From: Prevotella sp. | Lineage (GTDB): Bacteria > Bacteroidota > Bacteroidia > Bacteroidales > Bacteroidaceae | DNA length: 42,430 bases | Direction: 5' to 3' | NCBI GenBank assembly: GCA_017474925.1 | Contig: JAFVGN010000024.1 | Location: 1 to 42,430, forward strand | Part shown: positions 2,310 to 33,812 of the stretch, piece by piece | Layout: each line of letters opens with the position of its first letter | Numbering within the stretch: the stretch's first letter is position 1 | Position numbers and translations under genes: made by a program | The notes under the pieces: generated by a model | The model's database searches: none | What the model was told of the DNA's origin: nothing | Seen by the model: the letters and a program-made list of their open reading frames with translations, nothing else

Positions 2310-2489
2310 CGCACCATGAGCGTTTACTTTCGGAGTAATTGAATTTTCTTTCGGACTAATAAAAATTACTCTCGGAGTAATCGAAATTATGACCAGTGTA
2401 ATCCGCAATAAGCGTCCCTTATTTTGCAATAAGGGTTCCTTATTTCCCAATAACCCAGCCTTCTCGTCGAATAAGGACAGGTTATTGAA
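2310..2489. repeat. 21-bp phased repeat array, copy A
   Basis: Two linked sub-arrays keep one 21-bp phase. CGGAGTAAT-like units start at 2331, 2352, 2373 and 2394 (2310 is a weak member). CAATAA-like units start at 2406, 2427, 2448 and 2469 (the last is GAATAA), with TTATT half-sites at 2419, 2440, (2461 degenerate) and 2482. The two half-sites of a unit lie 13 bases apart, and units repeat every two helical turns. The array ends 26 bases upstream of the -33 element of the macro-domain gene. Read as protein on the minus strand it gives seven-residue repeats in an open frame (2274-2510), but that frame has no ribosome-binding site. Confidence 0.8.
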
Positions 2490-2515: not shown

Positions 2516-2547
2516 TTTGGCGGTTTCAATAATAGTTTGTATATTTG
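2516..2547 (+). promoter_or_regulatory. Promoter of the macro-domain gene, extended -33
   Basis: TTTG 2516-2519, 20 bases, TATATTTG 2540-2547. The -33 is extended to TTTGGCGGTTTCA, almost identical to the promoter at 31001-31032. The start codon lies 28 bases downstream. Confidence 0.75.
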
Positions 2548-2575
2548 CGCCATAACACTAAATGAAAATAGAAGT

Positions 2576-3070
2576 ATGAACGGAATTAGAATTGTGGTGG
2601 GGGATATCACCGAACTGGAAGTTGATGCGATAGTGAATGCTGCCAACAGGTCGCTACTTGGTGGGGGTGGCGTTGATGGTGCCATTCATCGTGCGGCTGG
2701 ACCTGGACTGTTGAAAGAGTGCAGGACGCTGGGTGGCTGTGAGACTGGACAGAGCAAGATGACGGATGCGTACAATCTGCCCTGCAAGAAGGTTATCCAC
2801 ACCGTTGGTCCGATATGGTATGGCGGAAACAATAACGAACGGGAACTTCTTGCCTCGTGCTACGATACGGCCATGAAGTTGGCAGAGGAGCATAATCTTA
2901 AAAGCATCGCGTTTTCGTGTATCAGCACAGGTGTTTATGGATTTCCCAAGGCTGAGGCTGCTGTTATAGCCCAGCGAGTACTCACAGAGCACCTGCAGAA
3001 CGGCTACGAGGGTGACATCATAGTCTGTTGCTTCTCAGAAAATGATGCCCAATATTATCGTCAAAAGTAA
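2576..3070 (+). CDS. Macro-domain protein (ADP-ribose / O-acetyl-ADP-ribose deacetylase family)
   Basis: 164 residues, essentially a single macro domain of the YmdB/MacroD type. Family hallmarks are visible: GDITELEVDAIVNAANRSLLGGGG(V)DGAIH near residues 8-33 (the Asn and Gly-rich loop that binds ADP-ribose), HTVGP near 78, and the second loop SCISTGVYGFP near 110. Known members remove acetyl from O-acetyl-ADP-ribose or strip mono-ADP-ribose from proteins or nucleic acids in the cytoplasm; the exact substrate here is an inference. I chose the ATG at 2576 because the upstream in-frame TTG lies inside the -7 element. The gene stands alone, convergent with the GT2 gene, and is preceded by the 21-bp phased array. 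Confidence 0.9.
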   Translation: MNGIRIVVGDITELEVDAIVNAANRSLLGGGGVDGAIHRAAGPGLLKECRTLGGCETGQSKMTDAYNLPCKKVIHTVGPIWYGGNNNERELLASCYDTAMKLAEEHNLKSIAFSCISTGVYGFPKAEAAVIAQRVLTEHLQNGYEGDIIVCCFSENDAQYYRQK

Positions 3071-30298: not shown

Positions 30299-30904
30299 TT
30301 ACCCTTCTGCGCCGCCGCCACCGCCGGGCAGACCACCACCACCGTTGTCACCGCCGTTGTCGCCGGTGTTGTCGCCAGTGTTGTCACCGCCGTTCTGGGT
30401 GTTGTCACCCTCGTTGCCGCCTTCAGCGCTACCCTTGGCAGCGGCAATCTCTGCCTTGGTCTTGTCGGTCCAGGCCAGCTTGACGTCCTTCTTCAGCTCC
30501 TCGCGGGTGAAGTCGCCCGTCGACTGGGCCAGCAGCTTGACCGTCTTGACAGCGGCACCCGTCTTGGCACCCTCAGGCAGCGTACCCATGGTAGCAGAGG
30601 CCACCTTGTCGTTCTCGGCGTCGTACAGGGTCTCCAGGGCGTTGGCCTCTACGGTTGCCTTGAAGATGGCCAGGTTGTCAATCTTGACGGTGTTGCCCAT
30701 CAGGATTTGCTCGCGCACGCACTTGACGAAGTCGATGAGGATACCCGTGATGCTGCCCTCAGAGAACATCGTGTTGTGCTCCGACATGTGACGTGCCATG
30801 TCCTGGACGCTCAGCGTCTGTTTGTAACTCACGCGGGCGTACAGCTTGCCCGCCTGTTCGGTTTCCGAACCCTCGGTCACCTTGGAAAGATACAGTTCTA
30901 TCAT
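30299..30904 (-). CDS. HU-related DNA-binding protein with acidic Gly/Asn tail
   Basis: 201 residues from the ATG at 30904. Residues 1-125 fit the HU-related family of Bacteroidetes (MIELYLSKV, KLYARVSYKQTLSVQDMARHMSEHNTMFSEGSITGILIDFVKCVREQILMGNTVKI, TVEANALET). HU-like proteins bend or bundle DNA. The last ~40 residues are a tandem GGDNTGDN-type tail ending in poly-Gly; such tails are common in this family. It lies downstream of the primase cassette on the same strand but has its own promoter, with the 21-bp array upstream. Confidence 0.82.
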   Translation of the reverse strand: MIELYLSKVTEGSETEQAGKLYARVSYKQTLSVQDMARHMSEHNTMFSEGSITGILIDFVKCVREQILMGNTVKIDNLAIFKATVEANALETLYDAENDKVASATMGTLPEGAKTGAAVKTVKLLAQSTGDFTREELKKDVKLAWTDKTKAEIAAAKGSAEGGNEGDNTQNGGDNTGDNTGDNGGDNGGGGLPGGGGGAEG

Positions 30905-31000
30905 ACCGTTTGTTATGTTTTTTGTGGTATTAGAAACTCGTTGGACCAACTACATCGGGTGGCCCTTCCCGCCTTTATAATCCTATTTTGAATTATAATG

Positions 31001-31032
31001 CAAAGATACAAAAAATATCTGAAACCACCAAA
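31001..31032 (-). promoter_or_regulatory. Promoter of the HU-related gene, extended -33
   Basis: Minus strand TTTG (complement of 31029-31032), 20 bases, TATCTTTG (complement of 31001-31008). Extended as TTTGGTGGTTTCA; 26 of 33 positions agree with the macro-gene promoter. A ~95-base leader precedes the start codon. Confidence 0.8.
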
Positions 31033-31085
31033 TTTTCCCGCAATTTTTTTCTTAAAAAATGCACAATAGTAAATCATCTGATTAT

Positions 31086-31169
31086 CAATAACGCACCCTT
31101 ATTCGGCAATAACCTTGGGTTATTGCGCAATAAGGGTCGAGTATTGCATAATACCCGGCCCTTGTCTTG
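31086..31169. repeat. 21-bp phased repeat array, copy B
   Basis: Units start at 31086, 31107 and 31128 (CAATAA) and 31149 (TAATAC, degenerate); TTATT-type half-sites at 31099, 31120 and 31141 keep the same 21-bp step. The unit at 31107 is a full palindrome, CAATAA-N7-TTATTG. The array ends exactly at the DUF3987 stop and lies 53 bases upstream of the HU-gene -33. Confidence 0.8.
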
Positions 31170-33215: not shown

Positions 33216-33812
33216 TTAAAAATATTCGAAGAGTTCGGTTTTCAGATAGCAGTGGGCATCATGTCCGAGGAAGCACCCTGCCGACTCGTGCCCAACCTTG
33301 GCATCCACTTGTTTCTCGTCCAAGTGGTAAGTCTGCATCATGTAGTTGCGAACAGATGTAAACCACTTGCGGAAGTCGCCTTTCTGAAGGTCGATGGGTA
33401 TCCACCATTTCAAGCCGCGGCCGCGAGGCGAGCGGAACAGCAGCAGCGTCTCGAAGTATGGGTCTACAAGCAGTTTCTCTCTCAGTTCAGTCACCGGGTC
33501 GCCGTTTTCCTCGTCTATCTCCGAGGGTTGGCAGAGATAGTCTATATCCATGCAGAGACAGCTGGAGTAGGTCAGCAGCTTGTCGTCGCTGGCATAGCTG
33601 AAAGTACCGCCTGGCGTCACCCAGTCGAAGTTCCAGTTCTTGAATTGTTTCTGATCCTTTTCGTCTGTGAACGAGCGTAGCGTCTTCTGTGTCTCTACAG
33701 CACGGTTACCTGTCTCATAGCGATAGATGCCATGAAGCGACACTTCACCACAAGGGTAGTGGTTGCTGATGGGGCGTCGGAACGCCGATACTTGATACCT
33801 CTTGATCTCCAT
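33216..33812 (-). CDS. BT4734-type (VirE_N) archaeo-eukaryotic primase-like protein
   Basis: 198 residues. The family signature GGTFSYASDDKLLTYSSCLCMDIDYL (68-93) places metal-binding D89 and D91 in a hDhD motif; SPRGRGLKWWIP (128-139) is the strand with the conserved basic/Gly turn, and VDAKVGHESAGCFLGHD (169-185) the final motif. These are the palm-domain elements of AEP primases. The usual two-domain fusion is split here: this palm-only gene is followed by the PriCT-2/DUF3987 gene. No promoter of the consensus type is seen upstream; a large inverted repeat lies at 33848-33906. Confidence 0.8.
   Translation of the reverse strand: MEIKRYQVSAFRRPISNHYPCGEVSLHGIYRYETGNRAVETQKTLRSFTDEKDQKQFKNWNFDWVTPGGTFSYASDDKLLTYSSCLCMDIDYLCQPSEIDEENGDPVTELREKLLVDPYFETLLLFRSPRGRGLKWWIPIDLQKGDFRKWFTSVRNYMMQTYHLDEKQVDAKVGHESAGCFLGHDAHCYLKTELFEYF

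Follow-up and report, generated by a model that had tools for sequence, protein, structure and literature searches.

A dispersed 21-bp-periodic repeat family as candidate transcript-end punctuation between primase-type and HU genes in a Prevotella lineage

An array of four 21-bp units between a primase-type gene and an HU-related gene of a Prevotella genome is best read as one member of a lineage-specific, interspersed, 21-bp-periodic family. We favor, with moderate confidence, the interpretation that these arrays are REP/BIME-like, probably bidirectional 3'-end hairpins that punctuate cassettes running from a primase or VapE gene to an HU gene. The DNA analyzed, called the window throughout, is a 42,430-nt stretch of contig JAFVGN010000024.1 (assembly GCA_017474925.1) that holds two arrays of the family, copies A and B. 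A preliminary description, made from the letters of the window, had taken them for a private module in which array, boundary motif, and promoter were inherited together, perhaps placing a macro-domain gene and the HU gene under one regulator. The association of the array with the HU-HIG gene survives from that account; the private module, the shared regulator, and the inherited boundary and promoter do not.

Results

Anatomy of the two arrays

The features of the window to which the text refers are these.

31087 to 31166, minus strand: copy B array, four 21-bp units of AATAA-N7-TTATT plus a 4-bp spacer
31087 to 31103, 31108 to 31124, 31129 to 31145 and 31150 to 31166, minus strand: the copy B units, the fourth (31150 to 31166) degenerate
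31087 to 31124, minus strand: promoter-proximal unit pair of copy B, corresponding to the inverted repeat whose halves covary at HU loci
31000 to 31032, minus strand: promoter of the HU gene, TTTGGTGGTTTCA ... TATCTTTG, with its -7 box at 31001 to 31008
30299 to 30904, minus strand: HU-HIG gene, 201 aa, PF18291
31170 to 33203, minus strand: PriCT_2 and DUF3987 gene directly upstream of copy B, from a family scan
33216 to 33812, minus strand: gene with a BT4734-like N-terminal domain, PF08800
2323 to 2389, plus strand: array of another 21-bp family (unit TTTACTTTCGGAGTAATAGAA) next to copy A, from a TRF-type repeat listing
2407 to 2486, plus strand: copy A array, four units of the copy B family, before the macro-domain gene
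2516 to 2548, plus strand: copy A promoter
2576 to 3070, plus strand: macro-domain gene, PF01661

The four units of copy B, placed earlier at 31086, 31107, 31128, and 31149, were confirmed to within one base, and the array starts 4 bp off the stop end of the DUF3987 reading frame. Its promoter, TTTGG followed by TATCTTTG, is of the sigma-ABfr type (TAnnTTTG at -7, TTTG near -33), the Bacteroidota-type consensus quoted in PMC7366714. Allowing at most three mismatches, GCAATAA-N7-TTATTG matched 30 times in the window against 11.9 ± 3.7 in 100 shuffles, most places being counted on both strands since the pattern is nearly symmetric, and the perfect match lies in copy B. TRF at a score of 40 listed the copy A array and missed copy B, and Rfam gave no match above gathering score in the window. 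Upstream of copy A, at 2136 to 2230, lie two 31-nt direct repeats that are 84 per cent identical (TAACTC..CAAATATTTTTGCG). The second, palindromic 21-bp family (ATTACTTTCGGAGTAAT type, 2323 to 2389) also adjoins arrays on contigs C7, C19, and C54 of the same genome.

The array accompanies close relatives of the HU gene

One scan with the HU protein gave 129 relatives of the HU-HIG gene, of which the best 80 were kept; they come from Prevotella and allied genomes, almost all of them assembled from metagenomes and many bearing ruminant-sample titles. Dropping six with less than 250 bp upstream left 74 loci. Under a strict chain rule at least two units lie upstream in 47 of the 74 (shuffle mean 0.05, 20 rounds) and at least three in 37 of the 74 (shuffle mean 0, 20 rounds), while a looser rule places an array at 49 of 75 loci, the window counted in. 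Arrays accompany 3 of 185 further genes taken from those loci; an initial control, with none among 126 genes, drew on stretches chosen to avoid known arrays, which makes its zero partly a matter of construction. The proposed tie between array and HU gene is borne out at 47/74 loci against 3/185, the loci being related to one another (25 of the 49 arrays are left after deduplication). The link belongs to close relatives of the window's HU: PF18291 has 154 matches in nine genomes, ordinary HU included, and only a handful have a known array of the copy B family alongside. In many of the HU relatives the array lies 48–96 bp before a Bacteroidota-type -7 box. In another HU-HIG gene of the window's genome (L219, contig C56), a 21-bp repeat unlike these in sequence lies between promoter box and start codon.

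Spread of the family

The window's own genome (2.28 Mb, 64 per cent complete) has 10 array loci by a two-unit pattern with at most three mismatches, and besides them two isolated two-unit matches that look like chance, a reversed control giving one match per strand. These arrays adjoin unrelated genes, some of them between convergent genes, and with ten such loci a module private to copies A and B is no longer tenable. Arrays occur in 13 of 60 genomes of a genus sample, the own genome included (two-unit pattern, at most one mismatch; in one of the 13, G030, the reversed control matches too). In an order-level sample of 393 genomes, only three of them of the genus, convincing triple units were found in the own genome alone, the other seven matches having three mismatches and being judged low-complexity or built differently. 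Cores are alike within a genome, sharing 4.89 of 7 positions against 3.68 between genomes, a level reached by 0 of 2000 label shuffles (43 arrays). A search of the literature, with subscription papers mostly beyond its reach, found no description of such arrays.

Triple units were also found on two contigs of a viral collection. On one, L330, the triple unit (2556 to 2614) begins at a stop codon and has a promoter-like TATCTTTG box behind it; on the other, L331, it sits at the stop of an open reading frame. The search for a close HU relative on known plasmids or phages found none, the best match being about 35 per cent identical. Eight loci (L026, L084, L085, L087, L090, L092, L112, and L116) carry 22-bp TTCCCA-N3-TGGGAA arrays in islands that also hold 21-bp arrays; a noncoding control of 43 kb, positioned to avoid known arrays, had none listed.

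A Y1 transposase (PF01797) was matched in 35 of the 60 genomes, 9 of the 13 with arrays and 26 of the 47 others; its presence shows no clear link with that of the arrays.

Lineage specificity, the likeness of cores within a genome, the several repeat families in the array-bearing islands, and one-off copies such as copy A might all be expected of a purely selfish REP-like or MITE-like repeat, functionless, mobilized by a transposase, and tolerated where genes end. Such a repeat would hardly stand at 47/74 HU loci, nor should its last two units covary as they do (see below), and a clear link to the Y1 transposase is missing, so that we regard this explanation as improbable.

Boundary, promoter, and the macro-domain gene

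Copies A and B do share their promoter-proximal unit and flank, as first described, with GTTATTGANANTCAGATG exact in both and a single further match in the own genome at up to two mismatches, itself carrying two. The likeness of their promoters is equally real at 26 of 33 positions, a figure reached by 2 of 278 control TAnnTTTG boxes when compared with the copy B promoter and by 1 when compared with that of copy A. Joint inheritance does not follow. CAGATG and TTTGG are 17 bp apart in copy A and 42 bp apart in copy B, so array, boundary, and promoter have no one common spacing. CAGATG stands within 25 nt behind the array in 1 of 49 HU arrays, which is the window's own, and in none of the 48 others, which speaks against an inherited boundary; the motif was accordingly abandoned as a mark of the module. 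At up to one mismatch the boundary motif matches in 99 of 200 genus genomes, mostly as variants and counted irrespective of context. One variant, TTATTGATAACCAGATG, occurs 11 times in a single genome (G163, contigs C1 and C19), perhaps within a mobile element.

The promoter pattern occurs at seven places in the own genome, five besides copies A and B; an identical pair is among the five, and a Y1 transposase gene follows one of them. Array-less HU loci have the same kind of promoter, so that inheritance of the promoter with the array is not supported.

Relatives of the macro-domain gene were fetched for 29 cases, of which 15 were opened and 14 were readable. An array of the copy A/B family precedes none of the 14, seven of which are 84–86 per cent identical, and with that result the idea of a regulator common to the macro-domain and HU genes was dropped. 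Two of the 14 have other tandem repeats, with periods of 22 and 25.

Arrays tend to lie at gene ends

Where the gene upstream of the array points the same way and was scanned, it was in all eight cases of a primase-type family: DnaG-like primase (three), VapE (three), DUF6371 (one), and DUF3987 (one, the window). Three divergent neighbors scanned at HU loci comprised two methyltransferases and one weak Y1 match, and a family scan of one gene at an array-less HU locus gave no match. The own genome yielded two VapE genes, each with arrays upstream. With neighbors called mechanically as open reading frames, so that some 'divergent' ones may be spurious, the upstream frame is codirectional at 32 of 44 array-bearing HU loci with a called neighbor against 8 of 26 array-less ones (p = 0.001). 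In 21 of 49 HU loci no more than 26 bp separate the array from the upstream stop, which in 10 of these falls inside the first unit.

A similar position is taken by arrays away from HU genes. For 40 such arrays among the matches listed, a set that excludes those of G025, G030, G039, G050, and a few more, the median distance is 32 bp to a facing stop and 236 bp to a facing start (38 of the 40 with both neighbors called), a 3'-end preference of the REP type; 20 of 39 lie within 35 bp of a facing stop and 4 of 37 within 35 bp of a facing start (Fisher 1.7e-4). Against control gaps, neither convergent (9/38 vs 12/78, p = 0.31) nor divergent settings (8/38 vs 25/78, p = 0.28) differed clearly for these listed arrays. 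At HU loci a divergent -7 motif, judged by motif alone and with five loci lacking a TAnnTTTG box excluded, is present at 2 of 36 loci with an array near the promoter against 17 of 34 other loci (p = 3e-5). In four loci where it is present (L222, L223, L224, and L229) more than 300 bp separate the array from the -7 box of HU, and a small divergent gene, as read from the sequence, may lie between array and HU.

The primase-type neighbors bring to mind plasmid iterons, which are tandem units about two helical turns apart beside replication genes. The array could then be a replication origin or priming site, iteron or hairpin, of primase/VapE–HU cassettes, dispersed after loss of the cassette; the 8/8 upstream genes and both own-genome VapE genes fit this, as do some other HU or VapE genes that have 21–23-bp arrays of other sequence (among 32 genes picked by hand, several for their known arrays). 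However, many arrays adjoin unrelated genes, and their last two units are inverted with respect to each other where iterons are direct. A terminator often replaces the array at array-less loci without a divergent motif, and the best HU match on known plasmids and phages is a distant one, making an origin quite improbable in our estimation.

Neighboring units pair at HU loci, where terminators seem to stand in for arrays

The two final units of an HU-locus array form an inverted repeat with 17-nt arms and a 4-nt loop, and the pairing of their cores exceeds that of whole-unit shuffles (0 of 5000, for 44 unique sequences and also for 31 after clustering). In 37 of the 49 HU arrays, 85.1 per cent of cells pair against 35–54 per cent in slid controls, and in 10 of 17 pairs both partners have changed. 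The HU arrays thus present the covarying hairpin by which an intrinsic terminator is judged. The preceding pair, U(n-2):U(n-1), resembles direct repeats, unlike the last. The arms of the units are far more conserved than the cores. G-U pairs are not favored over A-C beyond composition, so the counts do not single out RNA over DNA.

In the window's copy B only 3 of 7 positions pair between the last two cores, counted by eye, and a terminator scan of the window found no terminator-like site or U-tract hairpin in the copy B array; the strand is nevertheless more stably folded than its shuffles (z = -3.8). For the 40 listed non-HU arrays, mean complementarity of adjacent units is not above shuffle (368/2000), and the number with at least 6 of 7 positions complementary is (31/2000).

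A hairpin formed by the array and followed by a U-tract is present at 11 of 36 near-promoter HU loci (shuffled mean 0.2) and absent from the other 25. Among array-less HU loci, a terminator-like site scoring at least 13 occurs at 6 of 11 without a divergent motif against 0 of 13 with one (p = 0.003); the cut-off was set post hoc, and without it the comparison is 6/11 to 1/13, the one being a weak site. One of the six loci, L262, overlaps an array-like remnant.

Period and spacing

Array-to-promoter distances cluster, with a Rayleigh R of 0.63 at 11.5 bp in 17 deduplicated loci (4 of 2000 smears, many periods having been scanned). This is the result that might be expected of an operator array, in which a dimeric DNA-binding protein would read AATAA/TTATT sites two helical turns apart and control the HU promoter and others. 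TRF, unlike the pattern searches, assumes no period in advance and likewise returned 21 bp, and arms far more conserved than cores and cores homogenized within genomes (0/2000) agree with such a reader. Yet a step of 11.5 bp differs from the usual helical repeat of 10.5 bp, and it emerged from a scan of many periods over related loci; arrays lie close to stop codons and are rare beside divergent promoter motifs; and separate binding sites need no covariation between neighboring units. An operator is thus unlikely, though it has more to recommend it than the selfish repeat or the origin.

Discussion

Most likely the array marks the end of one message ahead of the next and does not tie two genes to a common regulator. 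The punctuation reading is preferred mainly because array and canonical terminator look interchangeable at HU loci. Copy B would then be one member of a dispersed 21-bp-periodic family whose members tend to sit just behind stop codons. The array hairpin would end the transcript of a primase-type gene (DnaG-like, VapE, DUF3987, or DUF6371) and would shield the separate HU-HIG promoter from read-through, and elsewhere the arrays may punctuate gene 3' ends in either direction. We infer that the array terminates or stabilizes RNA in the cell.

Several known systems resemble the arrays in part. The REP and BIME elements of enterobacteria are short palindromes scattered between genes, often at gene 3' ends, and some can stop or stabilize RNA. 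The arrays are likewise dispersed, intergenic, beside unrelated genes, and at gene 3' ends, but they are strictly tandem at 21 bp, form their hairpin between neighboring units, are of unrelated sequence, and have no clear transposase link. With intrinsic (Rho-independent) terminators they share a hairpin behind a stop and before the next promoter, and canonical terminators stand at some array-less loci; they differ in being multi-unit and symmetric, with a U-tract hairpin at only 11/36 near-promoter loci. Tandem units about two helical turns apart beside primase-type genes are what they have in common with iterons.

The nearest printed system found is the BrickBuilt MITE of Porphyromonas gingivalis, described as 23-nt intergenic tandem repeats with a leader and a tail that carry promoters and with predicted stem-loops (PMC4596501). 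BrickBuilt resembles the arrays in being made of short intergenic tandem repeats, in several copies per genome, in a member of the same phylum, and differs in that the arrays here are of 21 bp and have a separate sigma-ABfr-type promoter. By eye, no common flank of the leader or tail kind was seen beyond the promoter, and the period is 21 bp, not 23.

Termination alone leaves unexplained the 21-bp period, the spacing steps of about 11.5 bp, the homogenized cores, and the other 21–23-bp array families that share the islands, and for these reasons a protein reader stays in consideration. A sequence-specific trans-acting protein might read the 21-bp units and co-evolve with their cores in each species, the arrays at gene ends serving this Prevotella lineage as a dedicated code for termination or roadblocking that is best kept at the primase/VapE–HU junction, and cassettes with other 21–23-bp arrays having readers of their own. 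We offer this as a speculation of low probability.

Transcript-end punctuation, which we continue to prefer, would if true give a large, little-studied gut lineage a recognizable mark of where its transcripts end, and it would mean that terminators can be built of tandem units that pair with their neighbors. It would also correct a tempting misreading, since a repeat that stands before a promoter need not regulate that promoter.
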